In this document: positions 35,968-51,955 of the stretch, piece after piece
How the letters are laid out: each line of letters opens with the position of its first letter
Position numbering within the stretch: the stretch's first letter is position 1
Program-made: the position numbers and the translations under genes
The notes under the pieces: generated by a model
What the model saw: only the letters and a program-made list of their open reading frames with translations
Database searches by the model: none
What the model was told of the DNA's origin: nothing
Assembly (NCBI GenBank): GCA_949372655.1
Contig: CASIAI010000001.1
Location: 325,279-389,278 of the forward strand
Source of the DNA: Candidatus Poseidoniaceae archaeon
Lineage (GTDB): Archaea; Thermoplasmatota; Poseidoniia; Poseidoniales; Poseidoniaceae
Direction of reading: 5' to 3'
Length of the DNA: 64,000 nt

Positions 35968-36639
35968 TTATATTTTTCCAATGAGCCATCTAGGAGAAGG
36001 ACCCCAAGCAATAGCATCAGGACCGTGAACTTTTACTAGTTTTCCTGCAGAGAATAAAGAGTCCAACCAGACCTCTAGAGAAGTACCTTCCCGATTACCT
36101 AGTTTTTTACTTGCAATTTCCTCGATATCTTGGGTCTTTAGAGCCGTTGTACCATACTCCCTAACAACAACTGTCAATAACTCACGAAGCCAAGCTTCCG
36201 CCATAGGATCTACACTCATTGGACCTTGAACCGGCCTTGGTGTATCCATGTTAGAAAAAATTTCCATCAATTCAATTATATCAGGTCGTATTGGCTTCTC
36301 TATCCCTAGCATACGCAATTCCTTACTCAAATCCAATTGGCCTATAGGACGTCTAACAACTGGTATTCTACTTGGGTCGGGAGTTGGACCCATATCAGAA
36401 GGCTTGTCTCCAAGAGGTTCTTCTTCTATCGAAATATTAGCTTTAGACTTGGTCTTAGTAGAACTACTTGGTTTGCTCTCGGTCGAATCTTGCCCATATG
36501 GCATTGTCCAACCCAAACCGGTCAAACCTAACTCGTCTACCTTTCGACTGACCCATTCGGCCTCGCCTCTAAGTAAAATATTGGTATCCTGCTCATCCGA
36601 CCTAAATCGGTATTGAACATAACCTGTTAGACCCGCCAT
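35968..36639 (-). CDS. Hypothetical protein
   Basis: 223-aa ORF; no recognised domain apart from a possible helical C-terminal module. Confidence 0.6.
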   Translation of the reverse strand: MAGLTGYVQYRFRSDEQDTNILLRGEAEWVSRKVDELGLTGLGWTMPYGQDSTESKPSSSTKTKSKANISIEEEPLGDKPSDMGPTPDPSRIPVVRRPIGQLDLSKELRMLGIEKPIRPDIIELMEIFSNMDTPRPVQGPMSVDPMAEAWLRELLTVVVREYGTTALKTQDIEEIASKKLGNREGTSLEVWLDSLFSAGKLVKVHGPDAIAWGPSPRWLIGKI

Positions 36640-36680
36640 AAAGAGTGGTAAGAACTCTTAAACTTCAAGGTGACGATTCA

Positions 36681-39344
36681 TCACTGGGCAAGTTGCCTTA
36701 GGACTGTGTGGAGGATTCCGCCGTTACGGTAATATTCTACTTCCACTGGAGTGTCCAAGCGTACTTGTGCTTCAAATTGAATTGCCGTTCCGTCGCTGCG
36801 AGTTGCAGTCACAGTAAGCATTTCTAGCGGTTTAACGTCATCATTGACTGGTATCGAAAATAACTCGGTTCCATCTAACTTCAATGATTCATGAGATTCG
36901 CCTTCTTTGAAAGTCATCGGTAGCACTCCCATCCCTACAAGGTTTGAGCGATGTATTCTCTCAAAAGAGGTTGCTATTACCGCCTTTACCCCCAGTAAGT
37001 AAGTACCTTTAGCCGCCCAATCTCTAGACGAACCTGTTCCATATTGGGAGCCTGCTAGAACGACTTTAGCACCAAGATAGGCTTGTGCTGCTTCGTAAAC
37101 TGATGTCACTTCCCCCGTATCTGGATGAATAGCATATCCCCCTTCTGTACCTGGAGCCATCTGATTTCTTATCCTTACATTAGCGAATGTACCCCTCATC
37201 ATGATTTCATGGTTACCTCTTCTACTTCCAAAGGAATTGAAGTCCTCTTTTTCTACACCTCTTTCCACTAACCATCTACCTGCCGGACCATCTTCAGGGA
37301 AAGAACCAGCTGGAGAAATATGGTCTGTTGTAATCGAGTCTCCGAGTTTGAGTAAAACTCTAGCATCAGAAATAGATGAAATCGGGTCAGGATTGGTTGA
37401 AAGTTGAGAGAAAAAGGTAGGTAGGCGGATGTATGTAGAATCGTCTTGCCAAGAATAAAGTGGGCTTGGTTCAGAAGGTATTCCATCCCACCTAGGTTCA
37501 TTCATGGCATCGGAATATCGCTGGATAAACATATCAGGAGTAATCACCGAAAGAGCTTCTTTTATTTCTTCTTCAGATGGCCAAATATCGCTCAACATAA
37601 CAGCAGAACCATCACTCGAGAATCCAAGCGGCTCGTTATCCAAATCGATTTCTAAATTACCTGCTATAGCATAGGCCACAACCAAAGGTGGACTCGCAAG
37701 ATATGATGCCTTCACTTTACTATGAACCCTGCCTTCGAAATTCCTATTACCTGAAATCACTGAGCCTACGATCAAACCTGACTCGTCAATAGCATTGTCA
37801 ATTTCTTCTGGAAGTGGTCCTGAATTCCCTATACAAGTGGTACATCCATAGCCTACAACATTGAAGCCCATCGCATTGAGGTCTTCTTCTAGACCTGTAG
37901 CCTGATAGTATTCAGTCACAACTCGGCTTCCAGGAGCGAGTGAGGTCTTAACCCAAGGCTTCACTGTCAAGCCTTTTGCCCTTGCCTTTCTTGCCAATAA
38001 TCCTGCAGAAAGCATTACTCCGGGGTTTGAAGTATTGGTGCAAGAAGTAATTGCTGCAATTACAACATCACCATGGTTCAAATCATATTTATTTCCATCA
38101 TTCTCGATAATAGCACTATTTGACAAATCTTGCTGCTTCAAGCCGTGGCCTTGATGCCCAAGTGGAGAGGTTAATGAATCGATAAAATGTGATTTCATAT
38201 TCGATAAATCCACTCTATCTTGTGGCCTCTTTGGCCCAGCTAGTGCGGGTTTTACTGTAGATAAGTCCAACTCTAATAATGCAGTATAAGATTTCTCTTC
38301 ATCTTGTGCCGAGTACCAAATTCCTTGGGCCTTACTGTATGCTTCAACCCCTTGAACGTGAGTTTCTTCACGACCAGTCAGCCTTAGGTACTCTAATGTC
38401 CGATCGTCTATAGGGAAGAAACCGCATGTGGCTCCATATTCAGGAGCCATATTGGCAATAGTTGCACGGTCTGCTAAGGATAATGCAATCATCCCTTGAC
38501 CGAAAAATTCTACGAATTTACCTACAACTCCGTGCTCTCTAAGAATTTCAACAATTCTAAGAGTCATATCTGTTGCTGTAACTCCTGGATTTAATTTACC
38601 AACCAGTCTAACACCTACAACATCTGGAGCAAGCATGTAAATCGGCTGTCCAAGCATTACTGCTTCTGCCTCAATACCTCCAACTCCCCAACCTAGTACG
38701 CCCAAACCATTGACCATAGTAGTGTGTGAATCTGTACCGACCAAGGTGTCAGCCAGCCATATTCCACCTTCTTGGCGTGAAACGCTTGCTAAGAATTCTA
38801 AGTTGACTTGGTGTACAATTCCTCTTGAAGGTGGCACTGCTTGAAAATCTTTCAACGATTTTTGACCCCATTTTAGGAATGTATATCTTTCCATATTACG
38901 GTGATATTCAATATCTAAATTCAATTCCAGTGCATCACTATGTGAACCCGATACATCGACTTGTACAGAATGGTCAATTACAAGGTCGACTGGAACTTGT
39001 GGATTTACTTTCTCAGGGTCACCACCCATTTCGACCATAGCATCTCTAAGAGCAGCGAGGTCTACAACCGCTGGTACGCCAGTAAAGTCTTGTAATATCA
39101 CTCTAGATGGTCTAAATGGTATTTCTCCACGCTCACCATCAGGTTGCCAATTAGCAATATTTCGAATGTCTTTTTCACTTACTAAAAATCCGTCATTACC
39201 TCTTAGAGCACCTTCGAGAAGAATTCTAATTGAATAAGGTAGTTTACTTGTATCAATTCCATTTTCATCCAAGCCATCTAAAGAATAATAATGCCCACCA
39301 ACTGATAATTCTCTTTTTGAATTAAAAGGGTCTAATGTCGCCAT
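36681..39344 (-). CDS. acnA: Aconitate hydratase (AcnA/IRP-like)
   Basis: LQDFTGVPAVVDLAALRDAM; GTDSHTTMVNGLGVLGWGVGGIEAEA; AAITSCTNTSNP; GYGCTTCIGNSGPL; GSQYGTGSSRDWAAKG. Confidence 0.95.
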   Translation of the reverse strand: MATLDPFNSKRELSVGGHYYSLDGLDENGIDTSKLPYSIRILLEGALRGNDGFLVSEKDIRNIANWQPDGERGEIPFRPSRVILQDFTGVPAVVDLAALRDAMVEMGGDPEKVNPQVPVDLVIDHSVQVDVSGSHSDALELNLDIEYHRNMERYTFLKWGQKSLKDFQAVPPSRGIVHQVNLEFLASVSRQEGGIWLADTLVGTDSHTTMVNGLGVLGWGVGGIEAEAVMLGQPIYMLAPDVVGVRLVGKLNPGVTATDMTLRIVEILREHGVVGKFVEFFGQGMIALSLADRATIANMAPEYGATCGFFPIDDRTLEYLRLTGREETHVQGVEAYSKAQGIWYSAQDEEKSYTALLELDLSTVKPALAGPKRPQDRVDLSNMKSHFIDSLTSPLGHQGHGLKQQDLSNSAIIENDGNKYDLNHGDVVIAAITSCTNTSNPGVMLSAGLLARKARAKGLTVKPWVKTSLAPGSRVVTEYYQATGLEEDLNAMGFNVVGYGCTTCIGNSGPLPEEIDNAIDESGLIVGSVISGNRNFEGRVHSKVKASYLASPPLVVAYAIAGNLEIDLDNEPLGFSSDGSAVMLSDIWPSEEEIKEALSVITPDMFIQRYSDAMNEPRWDGIPSEPSPLYSWQDDSTYIRLPTFFSQLSTNPDPISSISDARVLLKLGDSITTDHISPAGSFPEDGPAGRWLVERGVEKEDFNSFGSRRGNHEIMMRGTFANVRIRNQMAPGTEGGYAIHPDTGEVTSVYEAAQAYLGAKVVLAGSQYGTGSSRDWAAKGTYLLGVKAVIATSFERIHRSNLVGMGVLPMTFKEGESHESLKLDGTELFSIPVNDDVKPLEMLTVTATRSDGTAIQFEAQVRLDTPVEVEYYRNGGILHTVLRQLAQ

Positions 39345-39400
39345 ATCTTAGCCGAGTAGCCGCATGTCTATGAATAAAACCCTTGGGGGCAAATTCATCA

Positions 39401-40449
39401 TTACCAGAATTTCCACCAAGAATCATTTTCCAGATTAGTGGTTACGCTTTCTAGTACAACATCTTGAGGAGTTTTATCATTTTGACAGTTTTGACTGTTA
39501 TCACAGAGTGCGGTTATAGCATCAATATGCTCAAAGCCACTGGTAACTTCACCAAATACTGTGTGAACTCCGTATCTAGATGAGGAGTTCCTGGCGAACC
39601 ATCTTGGCCAACTGCCTCAGGATCTACAATGAAAAATTGTGAACCACCTGTGTGTGGATTATTTGTTTTAGCCATTGAAAGAGCATAAGGAGCATGAGTA
39701 CGACCATTATCTGCTTCATCTGGCACTGTATAGTCTTTCATAAGACAATCACCCGCAGAATCTGCTTCTTGACCATTACAATAGCCAAAGAATTTACCAG
39801 CATGTCCTCCAGAACCATCACCATTCGTGAAATCGCCACCTTGCATCATGAAGTTCGAAATTATACGATGAAATACTGTTCCATCATAATTACCTTCTTC
39901 GGCTAGTATACCAAAATTTTCAACATGCATTGGAGCATCTTCGGAGTATAATTCAACTACAACAGTCCCAGTACTTTGAGTGCCGTCGGTATTGGTCCAT
40001 GACAATTCTAATGTTGCTTCTGTCGCTAAGTCAGAGGTTGTTGTAGAAGCAGCTTTGACTACAAGTAATACTAGAATAATCGACGCAAATAAAGCGATAA
40101 TACCAGCAAAAGTAGGTGTCCCATCATTCACCAATCGAGGAAGTGTTGTTTCCTTGATTCTTTTATCTTGCATCTCATTTAGTATGGAGTTATATGAATT
40201 ATTTGCCTTTTTATCCCTTGGATCTTTCTTGACCGAGTCCCTCAGTAACGAAGCCGCTTTACGATATTCAGACTTTGAAGAACTTGCACTAGCAAGCGAC
40301 CATGTTGCTTCTCCAGCAATTCTAAGAGTGGTAGCATTTTCTCCATCAGGGTCTATGTCACGAAGAATCTTCAGTGAATCTTTTGCATTTCCTTTGGCTA
40401 AGACCTTCTCAGACTTAGTCCAAGCGTCTCTTAATTTTTCATCGGCCAT
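39401..40449 (-). CDS. Membrane-anchored cyclophilin-type peptidyl-prolyl isomerase; apparent frameshift near 39559-39567
   Basis: MADEKLRDAWTK helical domain + TM + cyclophilin core (VENFGILAEEGNYDGTVFHRIISNFMMQGGDFTNGDG...GGSQFFI); the canonical ending VFGEVTSGFEHIDAITALCDN...WWKFW* continues in another frame to a stop at 39401-39403. Confidence 0.82.
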
Positions 40450-40601
40450 GACCCTGCGAGTACCAATCCTTTTTTGAGTTTCACTATCTAAAAATGAACT
40501 CAATATTCTAAGAAATGAATCAACATGTTCAAAGAGTGTATGCGAAACGCAAAGAACATAGGGCCGGAATAGACACCAAATAACCCTAGGAGAAAAACAC
40601 A

Positions 40602-42389
40602 ATGGAAGCCATTGCCAATGATTTCACCATCAATATAGCCACAGCAAACGGGACAGGTTCACAATCTGCAAATTTAATTCTACTTCAATCAATATTTGAT
40701 ATGGGAGTACCTGCAAGCGGAAAGAATCTATTTCCTTCAAATATCTCCGGACTACCGACTTGGTATATCGTTAGATTATCAGATATGGGGTATCAAGCAC
40801 CTGGAGATAGAAATCACATCCAAGTTCTTGTCAATCCAGCGACTTGGGACGAAGACTTAGCGTCTTTAGAGCCCGGAAGTGTTGTCATATGGAACGAGAA
40901 TGCGAAGAAAGAGATGACAAGAGAAGATGTAGTTTCTTATCCAATACCTATGTCTGCTTTAGCAAGAAAAATAAATCCTAAAATTGCTAAATTAGTTACA
41001 AATATCATCTATGTTGGCGCATTAGCAGAGGTTCTTGGAATCGATCAAGAGGTTTTAGAAGCCTCGGTAGCTAAACAATTCAAAGGTAAAGATACCGCTA
41101 TTGAACTTAATATTACTGCCCTAGGACTTGGGAGAGATTATTTTCGAGAGAATCTAGAAAAGAAAGACCCTTACACAATAGAAGCACGTGAAAGGAAATC
41201 AAAACAATTCTTTATTGATGGAAATGAAGCAGTTGCTTTAGGTTCGCATTTTGGCGGTGTTCAAATGTTGGCTTGGTACCCAATTACTCCCTCCTCATCA
41301 ATCGCTGAAGGAATTATTGCTTGGAGTCCAAAACTTCGAACTGATGAAGAAGGTTCAACAAACTGTTCTATAATTCAAGCAGAAGACGAACTAGCTGCTG
41401 CTGGAATGGTACTTGGAGCAGGTTGGGCTGGAGGTAGAGGTATGACTGCAACATCCGGACCCGGTATCTCTCTAATGCAAGAATTCATTGGACTAGGGTA
41501 CTTTGCTGAAATCCCATCGGTGTTTTGGGACGTTACTAGAGTTGGACCGTCAACTGGTTTGCCAACTCGTACTCAACAATCAGATATTGCAATGCTCTAT
41601 GAAGGAAGTCATGGAGATACCCAACATATTGTATTGATTCCTGGAACTGTCGAAGAGTGTTTTGAATTTGGTTGGAGAATTTTTGACTATGCTGAAAGAT
41701 ATCAAACACCTGTCTTTGGAATGAGTGACCTTGATTTAGGTATGAATCGTTGGGCCTGTAATGGGTTTGAGTATCCTAGCGAACCGATGGATAGAGGCAA
41801 GGTTGTAAGAGACCAGAAAACTTTTGATGCGTTTGAAGACTTTGGCCGATACCTCGATGTTGATGGTGACGGAATCCCTTACAGAACATTGCCTGGCTCG
41901 GGAATGGCACCTATTCTTTACAGAGGAACTGGCCACAATACAAAAGGGGTTTATTCTGAAAAGCCTGAAGATTATTTGGCCCTCATGACCCGTCTAAAGA
42001 ATAAAATCGAGGGAGCAAGAGATAATCTCCCTGCGCCAATTTTGAGAGAAGAGAAAGAATGCGAAATTGGAATCATATACCTTGGAAGTATGGAAAATAC
42101 AATACAAGAAATCGATGATTTATTGGAAAGTACAGGATTAAAAGTTAGTCAGTGTCGTATTCGAGCACTACCAGCTCACAGCGAAATAGTAAACTTCGTC
42201 GAAAGACATGAGCACACAATTATTCTTGAGATAAATAGAGATGGACAACTATATGGAATACTTCGTAAGGAATTACCAAACAACCTTGTATCTCGTGTTC
42301 ATTCTGTTGCGTACAGTGATGGAATGCCACCACGAGCTAGAATCTATGCAGATAGAATTCTTGCTAAACTAGAGGAGGTGAACCAATGA
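40602..42389 (+). CDS. korA: 2-oxoacid:ferredoxin oxidoreductase, fused gamma-alpha subunit (KorA-like)
   Basis: N-terminal gamma domain then GNEAVALGSHFGGVQMLAWYPITPSSSIAE; ATSGPGISLMQEFIGLGYFAEIP. Confidence 0.9.
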   Translation: MEAIANDFTINIATANGTGSQSANLILLQSIFDMGVPASGKNLFPSNISGLPTWYIVRLSDMGYQAPGDRNHIQVLVNPATWDEDLASLEPGSVVIWNENAKKEMTREDVVSYPIPMSALARKINPKIAKLVTNIIYVGALAEVLGIDQEVLEASVAKQFKGKDTAIELNITALGLGRDYFRENLEKKDPYTIEARERKSKQFFIDGNEAVALGSHFGGVQMLAWYPITPSSSIAEGIIAWSPKLRTDEEGSTNCSIIQAEDELAAAGMVLGAGWAGGRGMTATSGPGISLMQEFIGLGYFAEIPSVFWDVTRVGPSTGLPTRTQQSDIAMLYEGSHGDTQHIVLIPGTVEECFEFGWRIFDYAERYQTPVFGMSDLDLGMNRWACNGFEYPSEPMDRGKVVRDQKTFDAFEDFGRYLDVDGDGIPYRTLPGSGMAPILYRGTGHNTKGVYSEKPEDYLALMTRLKNKIEGARDNLPAPILREEKECEIGIIYLGSMENTIQEIDDLLESTGLKVSQCRIRALPAHSEIVNFVERHEHTIILEINRDGQLYGILRKELPNNLVSRVHSVAYSDGMPPRARIYADRILAKLEEVNQ

Positions 42390-43441
42390 GCGATAAACCC
42401 GAACGCCCTGCAAGAGCAGTGAAACTCAATGTCATTAATGAACCGAAAGACAGTTACACTGGTGGAAAATCTTCACTCTGCCCTGGTTGTGGTCACGACC
42501 AAGTTTCTAACGTGATAGTAACTGCTGCTTGGGAAAGCGGCATTGAGCCTCACAGAATCGCTAAGATGTCTGGAATTGGTTGCTCTTCGAAAACACCTGC
42601 ATATTACTTAGGGAAGTCACATGGATTCAATACAGTACACGGAAGAATGCCATCGGTAACCACTGGCGCATATGCTGTCAACAAGGATTTACTCTACATT
42701 GGAGTTTCAGGTGATGGAGATTCGGCATCTATAGGAATTGGACAACTTATTCATGCAATTAGAAGAAATATGGATATGGTTTATATTATCGAAAATAATG
42801 GTGTTTATGGATTGACAAAAGGACAATATTCTGCAACTGCAGATATTGGTTCTAAAAAGAAGAAAGGCCCAATCAATAAGACTCAGCCTATCGACCTTTG
42901 TGCTTTGGCAATAAATCTGGGATGTACATTTGTTGCTCGCTCTTTCTCCGGCTCTAAGAAACAATTGAATTCATTGATTAAGGCTGCTATGTCGCATAAA
43001 GGATTTGCACTTATCGATGTAATTAGCCCTTGTGTCACTTTCAATAATAACGATGAATCTATGAAGTCTTATGGATATGTAAAAGAAAATGAGATCACTC
43101 TCCACATGGCTGACTATATACCTCACTTCAACCCAATCACAGAGGTTGAAGTTCCCGAAGGCCATTACCGAGATATCACTTTACATGACGGTTCTACAAT
43201 TAGACTAGAAACCATCTCAGAGGAACATGACCCAGCAGATGCCGTGGCGGCTCTGACGGCTCTTCACAATGCAGAATCTGACGCAAAGCACGTAACTGGG
43301 CTACTGTATTTTGATAATACTAAGGCATCACTAGCAGAAGACCTCGGGTTAATTGAGAAAGCCCTTATCGATGTACCTGATGAAGAATTGAGGCCTAGTC
43401 AAAGCGTATTGGATGAAATAAACTCAGCCTTTATGGGATAA
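42386..43441 (+). CDS. korB: 2-oxoacid:ferredoxin oxidoreductase, beta subunit (KorB-like)
   Basis: ATGA overlap with korA; LCPGCGHDQV; ISGVGDGDS-type ThDP motif (GVSGDGDSASIGIGQLIHAIRRN); NNGVYGLTKGQYSAT. Confidence 0.92.
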   Translation: MSDKPERPARAVKLNVINEPKDSYTGGKSSLCPGCGHDQVSNVIVTAAWESGIEPHRIAKMSGIGCSSKTPAYYLGKSHGFNTVHGRMPSVTTGAYAVNKDLLYIGVSGDGDSASIGIGQLIHAIRRNMDMVYIIENNGVYGLTKGQYSATADIGSKKKKGPINKTQPIDLCALAINLGCTFVARSFSGSKKQLNSLIKAAMSHKGFALIDVISPCVTFNNNDESMKSYGYVKENEITLHMADYIPHFNPITEVEVPEGHYRDITLHDGSTIRLETISEEHDPADAVAALTALHNAESDAKHVTGLLYFDNTKASLAEDLGLIEKALIDVPDEELRPSQSVLDEINSAFMG

Positions 43442-43493
43442 TTACGGGATTTTCACCCAATGTCCAATAAAGGAGAACTGATTCAATTTACCC

Positions 43494-44453
43494 ATGGAGC
43501 CGGGAGTCTTGGCTATTTCTAGCATAAGTGCTGGAAGTTTGGCTTTCGTTCTATATCGATTAGTTAAACGTCGTAATCAAAGATTACTTCGTGAAGCATT
43601 GAGGAAAAAATATGCGCCAGATTTGCCTGTTTTGAAAAATCACGATACTACAACGGTAGTTCATTCGAAAACCAGAGTCTTCCATGAAGGAGATTCCAAA
43701 ATACCACCGGTAATTAGAACAAAGCAGATAGAAGAAATAACTGAGAAGGATTATGGCGAGTGGGAGACTCGAGATAACTCAAGAAATGAGAATATTATTG
43801 AATTAAAATTAATTGATGATGAACTACTCGTCGAACACCCAGGGAGGGGAGACGAATTTGACGAAGATGAACGAGTTATGGAACTCGGAATCAGAGAATC
43901 ATGGATTGAAGAAAACGATGAAGAATTAGAGGAGCATGCTACCTTTGTTGAAAGGGAAATGATTGGTTCAGGGATAATTGTTGAAGATTCTCCACCTGAG
44001 GACGATGACTTAGACCAACGTCTTGAACGTGAGGGTGGAAAAAGTGGTTCGGTTCAAGTCTCGCTTGCTTGGGATGATTATAATGACCTTGATTTGCATC
44101 TATTTTGTCCATCTGGGGAAAGAATATATTTCAATAATAAAAATAGTGAATGTGGAGGCGAATTAGACGTGGACATGAATGTGAAGCCAGTTAGCAAAAC
44201 ACCTGTAGAGAATGTTGTTTGGACTTCTAATCCACCTATTGGCACTTACAAAGTAGGAGTTCATTTCTACAAACATCACAGGAAAAGAAAAACTAAGAGG
44301 TCTTGTAAATTTAGGATAAGGGTTTGTCTTTATGGGAAAATTCAAGAATACTCCGGCATAATAAATTATGGAAAAGCTATGCAAATGGTGACTGGTTTTA
44401 CAATTGGAACTGAAGAAGAAGTGTCTAAAAAATACGAAAGTCACGAATTTTAA
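43494..44453 (+). CDS. N-terminally TM-anchored protein with DUF2135/YfaP-like C-terminal domain
   Basis: VQVSLAWDDYNDLDLHLFCPSGERIYFNNKNSECGGELDVDMN...PPIGTYKVGVHFYKHH resembles DUF2135-type domains. Confidence 0.7.
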   Translation: MEPGVLAISSISAGSLAFVLYRLVKRRNQRLLREALRKKYAPDLPVLKNHDTTTVVHSKTRVFHEGDSKIPPVIRTKQIEEITEKDYGEWETRDNSRNENIIELKLIDDELLVEHPGRGDEFDEDERVMELGIRESWIEENDEELEEHATFVEREMIGSGIIVEDSPPEDDDLDQRLEREGGKSGSVQVSLAWDDYNDLDLHLFCPSGERIYFNNKNSECGGELDVDMNVKPVSKTPVENVVWTSNPPIGTYKVGVHFYKHHRKRKTKRSCKFRIRVCLYGKIQEYSGIINYGKAMQMVTGFTIGTEEEVSKKYESHEF

Positions 44454-44456
44454 TAG

Positions 44457-44524
44457 TAGTCCCACTCGGATTTGAACCGATCGAGGTGATAACTTCAATT
44501 ATGGGCCGCTAAATTAACAAATCT
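44457..44524 (-). pseudogene. Decayed tRNA-Gln-like copy
   Basis: Plus-strand AGTCCC(A)CTCGGATTTGAACCGA and ATGGGCCGCTAAATTAAC match the intact tRNA at 48863-48935; 5' acceptor AGATTTG no longer pairs properly with TGGGACT and the anticodon arm is disrupted. Confidence 0.75.
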
Positions 44525-44620
44525 AGACATCAATGATTTGTTTTCTTCCAATTTAAAGCATTTTTAGCATTAATAATTAGGAACAATTGGTTTATTAGCC
44601 GACGGTTCAAGGGATAGACG

Positions 44621-47600
44621 ATGAAGAAAATATTAGCAGTGCTTTTCGCATGTTCGATTGTTCTAGCTGGATGTATGGATTTAACCGATGATGAAGTCGA
44701 AAAAATCGTCGATGAAATCGTTGAAATCCCTGGCTGCAATGCAGACGAAACAGCCTACAATTATGATAAAGATGCTTCAAATAATAATGCCTGTTTGACT
44801 GAAATGGTTCTGAAAGATTCGGTTACTAATTTTATCAACCTGCTGGATAATGGACCTGGACCAGATGAAATGATGGGAATGTCAATGGAAGGTTCAGGAA
44901 GCATGGAAGGCCAAAATTTAGACTGGACTTCTGTTAGAGTTTCTAGCCCAACTGGCCAATACATGAGTATGGAACTAAACATGGAGATACCAGTGTGGTC
45001 ACAGTCTCAACTCATCACCTCTGCATCTGACGGAACTACTTTGATGCAGGTCGACTACAATGGAGCCCAAATGCTAATGAACAGTGCTACAGATTTCACT
45101 TCGTTTAACAGCATTGACATGAACGACGATGATGGCAATGATGACACTTCAGATGATATTTCCGATAATGATGTAGACTGGAATACTTTTTCATACTGTG
45201 AATGGGAAGGAGAGGATACTGACACACGATGGTATTGCTCCGAGTATAATCAAGATGGAACTGACGGATTTGACGATTGGTGGTACTTGTGCGAACTAGA
45301 TTCACAAAACGGAATGTGGTATTGTTCTGATGATTTTGGAGAATCTCCAAATTGGGCAAATACTGCTAATGATACACGTCATTTAGGTGCGGTAATCGAT
45401 GACGATAGTGATATGGGCGATGATGGCACTGGCGACATGGATTTACCTAGCGTTGAAATCCCTGACGGTTTTGACCCTTCTACTGCATTATTTGAAGCAG
45501 GCTTGGCCACCGATAGCGGATACTCTTTCTCAACAACGTTGAACGATGGAATGGGATACTCACTGACTATGACCTTTGCTCTTGGAATGGACTTTAAGGT
45601 CAAATCATTGAATATGATCGAAACTATGGGTGAAGAAACCACAACTTCATCAGTTACTATTCTTGATGATGTCACCTCAATGAAATATCTTGATATTGAC
45701 TATACTCTACCATACCATGCTCTTCCATTTACTGTTTCCCTAATTGACCAAAATTATGGTGAAGTAATGTGGATGTGTGATGATGGTCAAGAAATTCAAG
45801 AAGATTGGGTCAATGATGGATATGAGGACTGTCAAGACGGATCTGATGAATTCAGCCATGATGATGGTGACATGAGTGGTGAAGAAGGAAATGGTAATGA
45901 CGGCTCAGATGACCAAAGTGACCATCCAAATAACCAAGACGATTGTGAAGCTGCTGGTGGCCTATGGATGACAGAAGAGTGGGAGTCAGAAGATGATATG
46001 GAAAGTGGGTCAGATGGAACCACAATGAACTCAGAAAGTTACTGTGATTTAAGCGGCAACGATATTGCTTCCGAGGAAGATATGTTTGCTGGTATGGATG
46101 TTAGCCTAGACTGGTATGATTTGATGTTATCAAATATAACCTCTTGGGTCACTGACTCAGATAGTCCAGCTGATGACATGGTTGCTTTGAATCACTACTG
46201 GATGAATAACAGTTTATACCACGTTGAAGAAATGGAAGTTGATTCAGATTGTGATGGAATTCATAACTCAGAAGACAATACTTGTACTACAGCAATCGGA
46301 ATCAATGTCACTGAAAGTGATAGCAATATGATGATTTGGTCATATGATGAAAGTTTTGAAATCTCCGACATAAAAGTCCTTTATGCATACAACCATGACA
46401 CTAGCAGTGGCATAATGGTTGGAATAGTCTTGAGTGATACAGATGATGATATGTTTTTGTGTGACAATGGCAATGAAATCGACTACGAATATTATGATGA
46501 TGGATATGACGACTGTGGAGACTGGTCTGATGAGCCTAACCATGAAGATGATGGTCCTGATGACCATGGTGATGAAGTATCGGAAGATACTGAAAACTTC
46601 ATGGATACTGCTGATGATGATGCAGACGGAATGTTGAGTCTAGACGAATGGATAGATTTTTGGAATGAAACAAGTAATGACGAAATTGGTGAAGGATTGA
46701 GTCAAGATGAGATAGATTCCTTTACCGAATTATTCGAAGATTATGATTATGATGATACTGATGAACTTGACTTAGATGAACTTGAAGATTTACTTACTTA
46801 CCTCATGGATAGTGATCATGATGACCATGAAAGCAGTTCTACAGGTACGAATGCTGAAGCTTTGATGTTTGCTCAAGATTATGTTGATGCTGAATCTGGT
46901 TATCACAACCAACCTGGTTTTGATCTTGCCAACGTGTTTAACTTAGCTGTCGAAAGCGATGGAGAAAATGTGACTGGCGGACTTGGAGGGGATTCAACCG
47001 ATGAATGCGGAATGAATTGGCCTTCTGATAGTTACCATGTCGCGATATATTCTTTCGTTTCGGAATATGTTTTGGTTGAGGCTGGTGCAATTGGATGTTT
47101 CTTAGACGATGCTAATTTGAACCAAACCTACGGATATGTTGCAGAGGATATGGAAAATGAGTGGTTCAATGCCGATGTTGAGCGTACTTTTACCTGTGAT
47201 AACGGTGATGAAATCCTCTTTTCTGACGTGAATAATGGATTTCAAGATTGTTATGAAGACGGTGCTGACGAACAGCAGTATGACAGCAATAACAATCCAA
47301 TTAACTCGTTTGATTGCGATGATGGAAGCCAAGTGTGGATATATCAGGTGAACGACGGCGTTGAAGACTGCTCAATGGGAGAAGACGAGAGCATCGAAGA
47401 TAGTGATGATGATCCCGAAGAGCCAGAAAATTTTGCCTGCTATGACACAATAATGGAAGAATACGACTATGTTCGAAACCAAACCGATTGTGAAGATAAT
47501 GGTTTTATCTGGATGGATTTGAATGATGACCATAATGAAAATGGAATTGTAGATGATGAGGAATTCGTTTGTGACAATGGTAATATAATACATAACGATC

Positions 47601-48721
47601 TAGTCAATAATGAAAATGACGACTGCGGAGATGGTTCAGACGAATACTCCGATGATGGCAATGGTGATGATGACCAAAGTGACAATCAATCTGAGGAGTG
47701 GATATATGAATGTGCTTACTTTGTAGATGCCGGCAGTACAGTCTATGACGATAATGGTAATGCGTCTTTCAATGATTCATGGATTTCTGATGAACTAAAC
47801 TATCTTTCTACCCTTTGTGGAACAGTTGTTGAAGAACCTGATATGTATCAAATCAATGAAGATGAGGCTGGAGATGGCAACATCACTTTGACTGAAGCAA
47901 CAGATTATTTTGGATCTGGAGATGATGATTGGATGACCTTTATTGACTCCGCTTTCATGTGTTCTGATTACAACGCAGACTCTATACTTGATTTAGTCGA
48001 ATTTAGTTCCTTCTACAGCATTATATCTCCCGAAGGAAATATTGCTATGCTACTTTGCGAGATGGACTTAGATCAATCCGGCGAAGTAAGCCCTAGTGAA
48101 TTTGGTCTTTGGAAAAATCAATCTCATCAAATGTCTGATGAAGATTGGAATGGCTTCCTCTCTGGATGGTACACAATCGACACTGACAATAGTGGTGGAT
48201 TAAATACTGTTGAACTTGCAGAAATGCTTTCCAATGATGAGGAGGATGATGATGACATCAACGAGGAGAATGGAGGCGATGTAGAAAATGATCGTGAAGG
48301 TTTGTATGGATGGATTATTACTAGTTCACAGGATATGCCTATGGAAGGAACATTTAGCGATTACTCAATCGTACTTGCACAATGCACTATGGAAGATACT
48401 GAAGACTCTGACAGTATGGACATGGACCTCAGTAATACTCCAACGATGGACTGCGGTGAAGATGTCATGAAACTCTCAATTGCTGATGCAATGGTAGATA
48501 ATGTAGCAATTACCTTCTATGATGCAGATGAATCTGGTACTGTTTCAGAGGGTGACGTGATTATGGTCAACAATGATACTGGTGATTGGAATACGGTTAG
48601 ACTACACTCATCATCTGCTAACTCTTATTCTGACGAAAACCCGATGATGACTCCAGGTTTCACCGGAGCTTTAGGAATGCTTGCTCTACTTGGAGCGGCT
48701 TTGCTAACTCGCAGAGATTGA
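44621..48721 (+). CDS. Giant acidic lipoprotein with LDLa-like and EF-hand-like repeats and a C-terminal PGF-CTERM-like signal
   Basis: Lipobox VLAGCMD; five CDNG...(V/Y)NDG..DC.DGSDE-type repeats; EF-hand-like loops (DDDADGMLSLDE, DLDQSGEVSPSE, DTDNSGGLNTVE); C-terminus PGFTGALGMLALLGAALLTRRD. Confidence 0.85.
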   Translation: MKKILAVLFACSIVLAGCMDLTDDEVEKIVDEIVEIPGCNADETAYNYDKDASNNNACLTEMVLKDSVTNFINLLDNGPGPDEMMGMSMEGSGSMEGQNLDWTSVRVSSPTGQYMSMELNMEIPVWSQSQLITSASDGTTLMQVDYNGAQMLMNSATDFTSFNSIDMNDDDGNDDTSDDISDNDVDWNTFSYCEWEGEDTDTRWYCSEYNQDGTDGFDDWWYLCELDSQNGMWYCSDDFGESPNWANTANDTRHLGAVIDDDSDMGDDGTGDMDLPSVEIPDGFDPSTALFEAGLATDSGYSFSTTLNDGMGYSLTMTFALGMDFKVKSLNMIETMGEETTTSSVTILDDVTSMKYLDIDYTLPYHALPFTVSLIDQNYGEVMWMCDDGQEIQEDWVNDGYEDCQDGSDEFSHDDGDMSGEEGNGNDGSDDQSDHPNNQDDCEAAGGLWMTEEWESEDDMESGSDGTTMNSESYCDLSGNDIASEEDMFAGMDVSLDWYDLMLSNITSWVTDSDSPADDMVALNHYWMNNSLYHVEEMEVDSDCDGIHNSEDNTCTTAIGINVTESDSNMMIWSYDESFEISDIKVLYAYNHDTSSGIMVGIVLSDTDDDMFLCDNGNEIDYEYYDDGYDDCGDWSDEPNHEDDGPDDHGDEVSEDTENFMDTADDDADGMLSLDEWIDFWNETSNDEIGEGLSQDEIDSFTELFEDYDYDDTDELDLDELEDLLTYLMDSDHDDHESSSTGTNAEALMFAQDYVDAESGYHNQPGFDLANVFNLAVESDGENVTGGLGGDSTDECGMNWPSDSYHVAIYSFVSEYVLVEAGAIGCFLDDANLNQTYGYVAEDMENEWFNADVERTFTCDNGDEILFSDVNNGFQDCYEDGADEQQYDSNNNPINSFDCDDGSQVWIYQVNDGVEDCSMGEDESIEDSDDDPEEPENFACYDTIMEEYDYVRNQTDCEDNGFIWMDLNDDHNENGIVDDEEFVCDNGNIIHNDLVNNENDDCGDGSDEYSDDGNGDDDQSDNQSEEWIYECAYFVDAGSTVYDDNGNASFNDSWISDELNYLSTLCGTVVEEPDMYQINEDEAGDGNITLTEATDYFGSGDDDWMTFIDSAFMCSDYNADSILDLVEFSSFYSIISPEGNIAMLLCEMDLDQSGEVSPSEFGLWKNQSHQMSDEDWNGFLSGWYTIDTDNSGGLNTVELAEMLSNDEEDDDDINEENGGDVENDREGLYGWIITSSQDMPMEGTFSDYSIVLAQCTMEDTEDSDSMDMDLSNTPTMDCGEDVMKLSIADAMVDNVAITFYDADESGTVSEGDVIMVNNDTGDWNTVRLHSSSANSYSDENPMMTPGFTGALGMLALLGAALLTRRD

Positions 48722-48726
48722 ATTCA
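48656..48726 (+). repeat. 71-bp exact direct repeat copy 1 (encodes PGF-CTERM-like tail, stop and 3' flank)
   Basis: Identical to 51541-51611. Confidence 0.95.
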
Positions 48727-48862
48727 GCCAACATATGACAACCACTGGGGATATCCTTCAATGCTTGGAGGATGATTTCTGCTGTCTTAGCCGAACCATT
48801 CTTAATCTCTGACAATGCTGTTTCAATATGTGGAACTGCTGTCTTTAGATGTTGAACTAAAG

Positions 48863-48935
48863 TAGTCCCTCTCGGATTTGAACCGAGGTCGGGGGAACCA
48901 GAATCCTCCATGATGGACCGCTACACTAAGGGACT
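48863..48935 (-). tRNA. tRNA-Gln (anticodon CTG)
   Basis: AGTCCCT/AGGGACT acceptor, D-arm with GG, CTCGG-TTCAAAT-CCGAG T-arm, loop TTCTGGT giving anticodon CTG; one A-C mismatch in the anticodon stem. Confidence 0.87.
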
Positions 48936-49017
48936 ATGTAGGCCGCTAATGGCCAATGTTTTTCAAATAGAGGGTAAAAAATAAAAAAAAACGCTTGAAT
49001 CGGTCATATTATATGGT

Positions 49018-51606
49018 ATGGTTCGGCGTCCTTCGGATATGAATAAGAAGTTTGCAATAGTGATGGCCCTTTTCATGGCCCTTGCTGGATGTACTGAAAG
49101 TATCGAAGATGACATAAAAGAAAACGTTAGTATCCCTGGGTGCAACGACGAGGCATCATTCAATTATAATGAAAGTGCAACTAATGTAGATGCATGCTTA
49201 ACAGAATTAGCCCTAGAACAAGCAATCATGGATTTCATGATGGCTATCGATGAAGGTCCTAAGAATGCCAATGATACAATTGGAGTAACTGCCTCTGCAA
49301 CATCATCTATGGATGACATGGCTTCAACTTCTACACTCGCATTCTCACCTTCAGGATTTGCTCAAATTGTGACCATGACTGGAAACATCGATATGGGACC
49401 AGGTATGGTAATGCCGATCGATATTAAAATCAATCAAAATGTCATGCCTAATCCTGATGGAACAGACTCTACAATTATGCACATAGTTCACATGAGTGCT
49501 GACAATGAATTTGTTATGCACAACGCTGTTTCATGGTCTACAATAGTCGCTGATATGCTTGATGATGACTGTGATGATGACTGTGATGGTGACAACATGG
49601 GTGAAGACGACATGGATGGAGACAACATGGGTGGAGACGACATGGATGGAGACGACATGGGTGGAGACCACATGGATGGAGACCACAACTCAAACAGTAA
49701 CCATGGAGACCACATGGAAATGGTGTGGCGTTGTATCGACTTTGTAAACTACTCGTTAGCCCCTTCAGATGGAAATATAACTGATGTTTTTATGTCAAAT
49801 GACCTTGACTTTTCCATGTGTGGTATGCTAGTAGGCGAGACTAATCATACCTTTGGAACAGGCGAATTCACCATGCCTGAAAAATTTGCAACCCGTGAAT
49901 GTATGACCAGTAGTATAGATCAAAGTTCAGAGTGCGAAACATCGGTAATCGAGTCAAATTCAACAGGATTATGGAATCACTTCTACGTATCTGAGGAATC
50001 TGCATGTGATGAGGGGAGCTTTGATAGTTCAACAAATATGTGCTTAGAATTTTTAGGTGAACTATCTATGAATGATTCTGAAGCATTTGAGGTATTCTCT
50101 CAAGGAGAAAGTATTACTGTCATGTATCAGTATAATTCAACTACTCAAAGTGGAATTTTAATGGTTGAAGATGATCCTGAACATGACGATGACATGAATG
50201 GGCATGATGATGACATGGGTGGAAACGACATGGACATGGGTATGCCAGATCCGGTTGACGCAAAGGATGTTTTGGAAGATTTTGATGTTACTAACTCAAC
50301 ATATGCTTTAGCACAAGCAACAGATAATGGATACTCTTTTACTGCCAATGTAACTGAAGAATATATGGATGAAGATGGTTCATCCATGAATGTCACAACC
50401 ACTTTCACATTTGTAATTGATTCTAGTTTTAAGGTCAATTCAGTTTCTGCTTCCAATGTAATGGAAACAATAACTGTTACAATTTTAACTGATACACAGG
50501 TCGAAGCGTACTTCAATACAGACTTGTCTGCTTTGACCACTCAAGCACTTCCATTCAGTGTTATGCCAATGGGTGGAAACCATGGTGATGACATGGACGG
50601 AGACGACATGGGTGGAGACCACATGGATGGAGACCACAACTCAAACAGTAACCATGGAGACCACATGGAAATGGTGTGGCGTTGTATCGACTTTGTAAAC
50701 TACTCGTTAGCCCCTTCAGATGGAAATATAACTGATGTTTTTATGTCAAATGACCTTGACTTTTCCATGTGTGGTATGCTAGTAGGCGAGACTAATCATA
50801 CCTTTGGAACAGGCGAATTCACCATGCCTGAAAAATTTGCAACCCGTGAATGTATGACCAGTAGTATAGATCAAAGTTCAGAGTGCGAAACATCGGTAAT
50901 CGAGTCAAATTCAACAGGATTATGGAATCACTTCTACGTATCTGAGGAATCTGCATGTGATGAGGGGAGCTTTGATAGTTCAACAAATATGTGCTTAGAA
51001 TTTTTAGGTGAACTATCTATGAATGATTCTGAAGCATTTGAGGTATTCTCTCAAGGAGAAAGTATTACTGTCATGTATCAGTATAATTCAACTACTCAAA
51101 GTGGAATTTTAATGGTTGAAGATGATCCTGAACATGACGATGACATGAATGGGCATGATGACCATGGAGTTCACAACTCACTTGATTGGATGATCTCTGA
51201 TAGTAACCTAGACCTACCACCTATCGCAGGAGATCTTTCTGACTACTCTGCAGTTCTTTCGGTTTGTGATGAAGACATGCCAGATTCTAGCGATGAAATG
51301 ATGGACTTGGGAGGCTCAGAATCAAGTTTAGTATGCTCAGAATTTGTTCTTATTGTTAAATTGAGTGACGCTGGAATGGACTCAGACATAATGTTCCATG
51401 ATGTAGATAACTCTGGAACTTTAACTGACGGAGATATGCTTCACATAAACCCTAATGCAACTATTGGAGATTGGACACACCTGCGTCTATACTCTACTAG
51501 TGCTGATGCATACAGTGATGAAAATCCAATGATGACTCCTGGTTTCACCGGAGCTTTAGGAATGCTTGCTCTACTTGGAGCGGCTTTGCTAACTCGCAGA
51601 GATTGA
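49018..51606 (+). CDS. Acidic lipoprotein with internal exact duplication and C-terminal PGF-CTERM-like signal
   Basis: Lipobox ALAGCTES (likely start MNKKFAIVMALFMALAGC); IPGCNDEASFNYNESATNVDACLTELAL parallels the 44621 protein; C-terminus PGFTGALGMLALLGAALLTRRD. Confidence 0.83.
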   Translation: MVRRPSDMNKKFAIVMALFMALAGCTESIEDDIKENVSIPGCNDEASFNYNESATNVDACLTELALEQAIMDFMMAIDEGPKNANDTIGVTASATSSMDDMASTSTLAFSPSGFAQIVTMTGNIDMGPGMVMPIDIKINQNVMPNPDGTDSTIMHIVHMSADNEFVMHNAVSWSTIVADMLDDDCDDDCDGDNMGEDDMDGDNMGGDDMDGDDMGGDHMDGDHNSNSNHGDHMEMVWRCIDFVNYSLAPSDGNITDVFMSNDLDFSMCGMLVGETNHTFGTGEFTMPEKFATRECMTSSIDQSSECETSVIESNSTGLWNHFYVSEESACDEGSFDSSTNMCLEFLGELSMNDSEAFEVFSQGESITVMYQYNSTTQSGILMVEDDPEHDDDMNGHDDDMGGNDMDMGMPDPVDAKDVLEDFDVTNSTYALAQATDNGYSFTANVTEEYMDEDGSSMNVTTTFTFVIDSSFKVNSVSASNVMETITVTILTDTQVEAYFNTDLSALTTQALPFSVMPMGGNHGDDMDGDDMGGDHMDGDHNSNSNHGDHMEMVWRCIDFVNYSLAPSDGNITDVFMSNDLDFSMCGMLVGETNHTFGTGEFTMPEKFATRECMTSSIDQSSECETSVIESNSTGLWNHFYVSEESACDEGSFDSSTNMCLEFLGELSMNDSEAFEVFSQGESITVMYQYNSTTQSGILMVEDDPEHDDDMNGHDDHGVHNSLDWMISDSNLDLPPIAGDLSDYSAVLSVCDEDMPDSSDEMMDLGGSESSLVCSEFVLIVKLSDAGMDSDIMFHDVDNSGTLTDGDMLHINPNATIGDWTHLRLYSTSADAYSDENPMMTPGFTGALGMLALLGAALLTRRD
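49648..50210 (+). repeat. Exact in-frame direct repeat, copy 1 (563 bp)
   Basis: Identical by eye to 50599-51161, offset 951 bp (317 codons). Confidence 0.93.
50599..51161 (+). repeat. Exact in-frame direct repeat, copy 2 (563 bp)
   Basis: Identical by eye to 49648-50210. Confidence 0.93.
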
Positions 51607-51611
51607 ATTCA
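51541..51611 (+). repeat. 71-bp exact direct repeat copy 2 (encodes PGF-CTERM-like tail)
   Basis: Identical to 48656-48726. Confidence 0.95.
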
Positions 51612-51633: not shown

Positions 51634-51828
51634 TTAGAAGGTAACAAAGCGAAATAGTACCTTTGATACTGCGCTTAGCATTAGTACGATCATGAAAGAG
51701 CCAAGAGCCCATTTGGCCCAAGGCCTATCAGGCTTACTTGGTGGCCATGGGTCGAAACCAAGGCGTTCAGCCTCTTCTACCAAAGCGGCTAGTTCTGCCA
51801 ATTCTTCCTCTAAAGTCTCGGCTACCAT
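51634..51828 (-). CDS. Small single-TM protein
   Basis: MVAETLEEELAELAALVEEAERLGFDPWPPSKPDRPWAKWALGSFMIVLMLSAVSKVLFRFVTF. Confidence 0.6.
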   Translation of the reverse strand: MVAETLEEELAELAALVEEAERLGFDPWPPSKPDRPWAKWALGSFMIVLMLSAVSKVLFRFVTF

Positions 51829-51955
51829 GCAAAATGCCAAATGCTCGGCATAATTGAATAATTGGTATGAAAGGCAAATAAAATAGTCAAAATCCACCCA
51901 ATTCTCGATACAGAAGGAAACATGCATTCAAAAGCAAACGGATGGATTTGAGAGT

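Follow-up and report, generated by a model that had tools for sequence, protein, structure and literature searches.

The analysed window was a 64,000-nucleotide stretch from an assembly (1.58 Mb, 75% complete) whose host was a Marine Group II archaeon (Ca. Poseidoniaceae/Poseidoniales), judging by its nearest named relatives. The genomes compared with it were nearly all metagenome assemblies, and chimeric contigs were possible among them. The locus of interest began with a resident gene of 319 aa (43494-44453, plus strand), hereafter the 43494 gene, which had orthologs in many genomes of the same genus. Its product had no Pfam match and strongly matched PHROG families 1735 and 23228 of unknown function; two more copies of its C-terminal domain were present in a 655-aa ORF elsewhere on the same contig. 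Next to it were a decayed copy of tRNA-Gln(CUG) (44455-44524, minus strand), a lipoprotein gene of 1366 aa (44621-48721, plus strand), an intact tRNA-Gln(CUG) (48862-48935, minus strand) and a second lipoprotein gene of 862 aa (49018-51606, plus strand). We refer to the two lipoprotein genes as the 44621 gene and the 49018 gene; the products of both had a lipobox. The right border was formed by the conserved small gene orf51634m (51634-51927, minus strand), which had the same place to the right of the lipoprotein gene in the related loci L081-L083, L086, L087, L165 (located on contig G002:C35) and L168.

The original prediction described both tRNAs as lying just upstream of related lipoprotein genes. 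Their proximity was evident, since the 5' ends of the intact and the decayed tRNA were located about 82 and 96 bp before the respective ATG codons, but the orientation was different: both tRNA genes were on the minus strand, divergent from the plus-strand lipoprotein genes, with their 5' ends facing the ATGs. The intact tRNA-Gln was recognized as such by ARAGORN as well as by the Rfam model RF00005 (48.7 bits), as had been expected. Of the 31 tRNA genes found in the 75%-complete genome, no other was a CTG isoacceptor, and the TTG isoacceptor of tRNA-Gln was on another contig.

The decayed copy also proved to be real. Its 26 bp at the 3' end (44455-44480) were nearly intact and matched positions 48861-48886 at 25 of the 26 sites. 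This was a direct repeat at the tRNA 3' ends, where a search for repeats had been suggested. It had no further match in the window at up to three mismatches and none in 100 shuffles. The eroded remainder (44481-44524) could be aligned with the intact tRNA at 29 of 49 positions, which exceeded 1000 of 1000 shuffles. In a tRNA-Gln covariance model that was built from 16 sequences, the intact gene scored 105.2 bits and the decayed copy 24.8 bits (E 4e-5). No tRNA was called there by Rfam, even at E<=10, or by ARAGORN (in the region 44300-44700). Lacking a complete cloverleaf and anticodon, the decayed copy did not qualify as a tRNA-Gln gene; its homology to tRNA-Gln(CTG) over both halves together with its location at the ancestral site identified it as a tRNA-Gln pseudogene, and its 3' end resembled that of the CTG isoacceptor more than that of the TTG one. 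The decay was significantly uneven between the 3' part (25/26) and the rest (29/49; Fisher p 4e-4), and the copy therefore looked as if its 3' part were young and its 5' part old. No additional copies of the tRNA-Gln 3' end were found in the loci of the relatives, and thus two copies were seen in the window alone. Two other matches were considered and discarded. Namely, a second tRNA-Gln(CTG) in genome G034 (contig C21) shared its neighbours with the locus, as well as the last part of the 43494 ortholog, and thus seemed to be a strain variant rather than a paralog. The tRNA-Gln match at the edge of G074:C150 had a 3' end that fitted the TTG isoacceptor.

The loci L081, L082, and L083 from the closest relatives served as the reference for synteny. 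All three had the order 43494 ortholog, tRNA, one lipoprotein gene, and orf51634m, and the outgroups thus contained the single tRNA-lipoprotein unit that had been looked for. Wherever a tRNA-Gln was detected in the relatives' loci, it was a single tRNA-Gln(CTG) whose 3' end adjoined the 43494 ortholog. Since this was the position of the tRNA in the relatives, the decayed copy in the window occupied the ancestral tRNA site while the intact tRNA was found 4.4 kb to the right of it. The DNA synteny with L081-L083 was unbroken from 36002 to 44480 at about 81% identity, ended inside the T-arm of the decayed tRNA, and restarted at 48859, at the 3' end of the intact tRNA. Thus, the two tRNA-Gln copies marked the exact borders of the insertion, and the repeat of the tRNA 3' end stood at its far end, which agreed with the earlier suggestion of a tRNA-associated integration site. 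The insert was missing from L081-L083 and from G074, where both sides were syntenic. In G074 (locus L163) the locus was empty, i.e., the tRNA was followed by orf51634m with no lipoprotein gene between them; several other genomes likewise had none between these two genes.

The two lipoprotein genes had different affiliations. In the tree of the core gene PORb the window grouped with L081-L083 (support 99/99); the dS between the window and its nearest relative was saturated in this gene (3.8). The 49018 gene followed this species clade: the tree of the N-terminal parts placed it with L081-L083 (100/100), and it was the ortholog of the single lipoprotein gene in the closest relatives. The 44621 gene, on the other hand, grouped with L085, L086, L087, and L165 (97/92) and was nested within the clade of one other lineage. 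Its 3' part (47042-48721) had 94.2% DNA identity over 1685 bp and a dS of 0.14 to contig G002:C35, whereas the flanking genes of this contig shared only 70-74% identity with the window but 91% with L087, which represented another lineage. Given this difference from the flanks and from the saturated dS of PORb, the 44621 gene had evidently moved between lineages recently. We therefore regard it as a xenologous gene that, judging by these divergences, is the product of a recent exchange with another lineage, which may have run in either direction or by way of a third source. A near-identical relative was available only for the 3' 41% of the gene; its 5' part had no more than about 80% DNA identity to any genome searched. 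On G002:C35 the same gene was located beside an intact tRNA-Gln and ahead of that lineage's own resident lipoprotein gene. This contig began inside the gene, so that the left end and a possible tRNA relic there were invisible.

The product of the 44621 gene had a lipobox, LDL-receptor-A-like repeats (Pfam PF00057, 2.6e-8), EF-hand-like motifs, a PGF-CTERM-like end (TIGR04126, 2e-4, under the family cut-off) and 226 Asp among its 1366 aa. The region 45776-47650 encoded at least four half-LDL-receptor-A-like motifs of the C[DN][DN]G...DC..GSDE type as well as the EF-hand-like motifs. From its domains, the protein would be an acidic, secreted lipoprotein that contains Cys, and its role at the surface is perhaps calcium-dependent. 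This gene was the sole large ORF in the inserted 4.4 kb, and no recombinase was present within the insert. The one tyrosine recombinase/integrase gene detected in the genome was on contig C7, away from the insert. A search for the cassette in viral contigs, phages, and plasmids produced no match.

The decayed tRNA was separated from the 44621 gene by a spacer (44525-44620) that had homology to its tRNA-lipoprotein counterparts in L165 and L087 (0/500 shuffles in each case) and none to the second such spacer of the window or to that of L083. Because it was of the donor-clade type and unlike the second spacer of the window, it probably arrived together with the 44621 gene. For the 140-bp spacer that follows the inserted gene and ends at the intact tRNA (48722-48861), there was no full-length match in 63 genomes of the same genus. 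The possibility that it was a decayed orf51634m, as found at the same place in L165, was rejected because the similarity was not above that of shuffles. This spacer also contained an open minus-strand frame that was part of an ORF at 48660-48911. It was not accepted as a gene remnant since the matches in relatives were almost all to the tRNA and the rest had no convincing relative.

Taken together, these findings made it very likely that recombination at the tRNA-Gln(CUG) gene had introduced a lipoprotein gene from another Poseidoniaceae lineage. Against this reading stood the cut left end of G002:C35, the want of a near-identical relative for the 5' part of the gene, the lack of a recombinase in the insert, the 140-bp spacer, for which the scenario does not account, and the chance of chimeric contigs. 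According to the synteny, the starting order would have been that of the closest relatives: the 43494 gene, tRNA-Gln, the 49018 lipoprotein gene, and orf51634m. The two boundaries suggested that the incoming cassette consisted of an eroded tRNA-Gln, the spacer, and the 44621 gene, and that its point of entry was in the 3' part of this tRNA. At present, the 26 bp of the tRNA-Gln 3' end stand at both ends of the insert, and a single intact tRNA remains on the side of the 49018 gene. The uneven decay of the pseudogene agrees with a recent junction near the 3' end and would be expected if the crossover hit the resident tRNA in its 3' part while the tRNA brought in by the cassette was already eroded; alternatively, selection acting locally on the tRNA 3' part could have caused it. 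The likely effect for the host was the acquisition of a second and different surface lipoprotein, acidic and, as far as its domains indicate, probably calcium-binding.

As for the crossover, homologous recombination between copies of tRNA-Gln was the most likely mechanism, and a tyrosine recombinase acting from elsewhere was possible. The corresponding alternative was site-specific integration of an integrative element or a tycheposon-like cassette at the tRNA 3' end, where 44455-44480 would be the second attachment site; it differed from our preferred explanation in the enzyme only. With the intact tRNA at one end and the 25/26-bp repeat of its 3' end beside the native downstream gene at the other, the arrangement was exactly the one produced by such an event, and the genome had a tyrosine recombinase gene, though on another contig. 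However, the insert comprised one lipoprotein gene without its own tyrosine recombinase and had no match among the viral contigs, phages, or plasmids. Moreover, the tRNA homology extended past the 26-bp core, and the adjoining spacer was an ordinary chromosomal tRNA-lipoprotein spacer, making the cassette look like plain chromosomal DNA. Since the last two observations favored homologous recombination, we considered site-specific integration possible but doubtful.

The main idea of the original prediction was that a tRNA-plus-lipoprotein unit had been duplicated in tandem inside this genome, after which the two genes diverged and one tRNA decayed. In its favor, the two units had the same orientation, and the proteins were identical in their final 31 residues. 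In addition, in the related lineage of G002:C35 a decayed second orf51634m was located between the first (transferred) lipoprotein gene and tRNA-Gln (L165:1679-1940), which is evidence for an older tandem duplication of the locus there. Thus, tandem duplication does occur in this family. However, the 44621 and 49018 genes belonged to different orthologous groups in the clades of different lineages, and neither the trees nor the identities made them each other's closest relatives. The 44621 gene was 94% identical to that of a foreign lineage, the two tRNA-lipoprotein spacers were unrelated, and the kinship of the two proteins was limited: apart from the identical C-terminus most of the sequence differed, with an identity of about 31-38% in the N-terminal part. 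The simple form of this scenario was not supported, and overall we found duplication within the genome unlikely.

The identical C-termini, which had been one argument for the duplication, turned out to coincide with a sharp 71-bp tract (48656-48726, plus strand) identical to 51541-51611. It was the longest perfect run between the two genes, with strong divergence directly upstream, and it spanned the PGF-CTERM-like sorting signal, the stop codon, and 5 bp beyond. The orthologs of each gene had many synonymous differences from it, and over the last 120 bp the identity between the 44621 gene and G002:C35 fell to 86%. Given the perfect run, its sharp edge, the divergent orthologs, and this drop in identity, the shared C-terminus was best read as the result of a local gene conversion in this genome, affecting a sorting signal that is conserved, rather than as identity left from a duplication. 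Such conversion would be a later step that equalized the 3' ends of the two lipoprotein genes. Since the protein form GALGMLALLG, common to both copies, was also the form in L087 and G002:C35, the direction was suggested to be from the 44621 gene to the 49018 gene; both this direction and the timing of the event are our inference. Both proteins ended in PGF, a hydrophobic stretch, and RR(D), similar to the PGF-CTERM proteins of the archaeosortase A type (TIGR04126/PF18204). Their scores (about 16-22 bits) were just under the curated cut-offs of this family.

Finally, an ancient duplication that gave both gene types to a common ancestor, with most lineages keeping one, would agree with the gene types being old and single in most lineages, yet it was highly improbable in view of the 94% DNA identity and the dS of 0.14 between lineages far more diverged in other genes and of the nesting of the 44621 gene inside one lineage's clade.

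Addition of a gene at the tRNA resembled several systems that have been described in marine and other bacteria. Additive flexible genomic islands (fGIs) with gene cassettes at tRNA genes were reported in Ca. Actinomarinales (PMC7771536) and in Ca. Methylopumilus (fGI-2; PMC10872708). Similar to them, the locus studied here had a single-copy tRNA at which a cassette with a cell-surface gene was inserted, kept the intact tRNA, repeated the 3' part of the tRNA directly at the far end, and was subject to exchange between lineages. The far-end direct repeat was found here, the insert was absent in close relatives, and the sharing was above background (94% vs 70-74%, in the 3' 1.68 kb only). In contrast to the described islands, the host was an archaeon, the cassette was a single lipoprotein gene, and the far-end repeat continued into a fuller decayed tRNA. 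The tycheposons of Prochlorococcus (PMC10872708) were similar in that a tRNA bordered a variable region in a streamlined marine microbe, but they carry a tyrosine recombinase, which this insert did not, and are generally larger. A statistical survey of Aeromonas documented additive transfer by homologous recombination in flanking regions (PMC11375855). As in that survey, the new gene entered the same neighbourhood as in the donor, here beside the tRNA, while the anchor in our case was narrowed to one tRNA gene. In the limited literature that we searched, no such tRNA-anchored exchange was found described in Marine Group II. Thus, the insertion is a clear archaeal example of a known route by which marine microbes swap surface genes. 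It documents to the level of junctions how an uncultured, abundant marine archaeon gained a different surface protein common to another lineage with a tRNA as the anchor. Most of what is known about comparable exchange comes from marine bacteria.

The lipoprotein slot was variable within the family: it had no gene, one gene, or two genes (L133 and G002:C35). More speculatively, the tRNA-Gln(CUG) locus of Poseidoniaceae might be a standing exchange site, where surface-lipoprotein cassettes are gained and lost via the tRNA without a cassette recombinase and the functional tRNA shifts between units. The several states of the locus, with zero, one, or two lipoprotein genes, would make the mechanism testable.

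Two further observations concerned the gene order and the resident gene. In a more distant clade (L127, L131, L133, L135, L138, and L139) the order was tRNA-Gln, orf51634m, and lipoprotein gene(s), and in L133 two lipoprotein genes were in tandem on the other side of orf51634m. The 49018 gene contained an internal direct repeat (49620-51170), in which residues 234-381 and 551-698 were identical (148 aa each). At the DNA level these copies, located 951 bp apart, were identical over more than 500 bp, and the repeat must stem from a duplication that is very recent or else from an error in the assembly.
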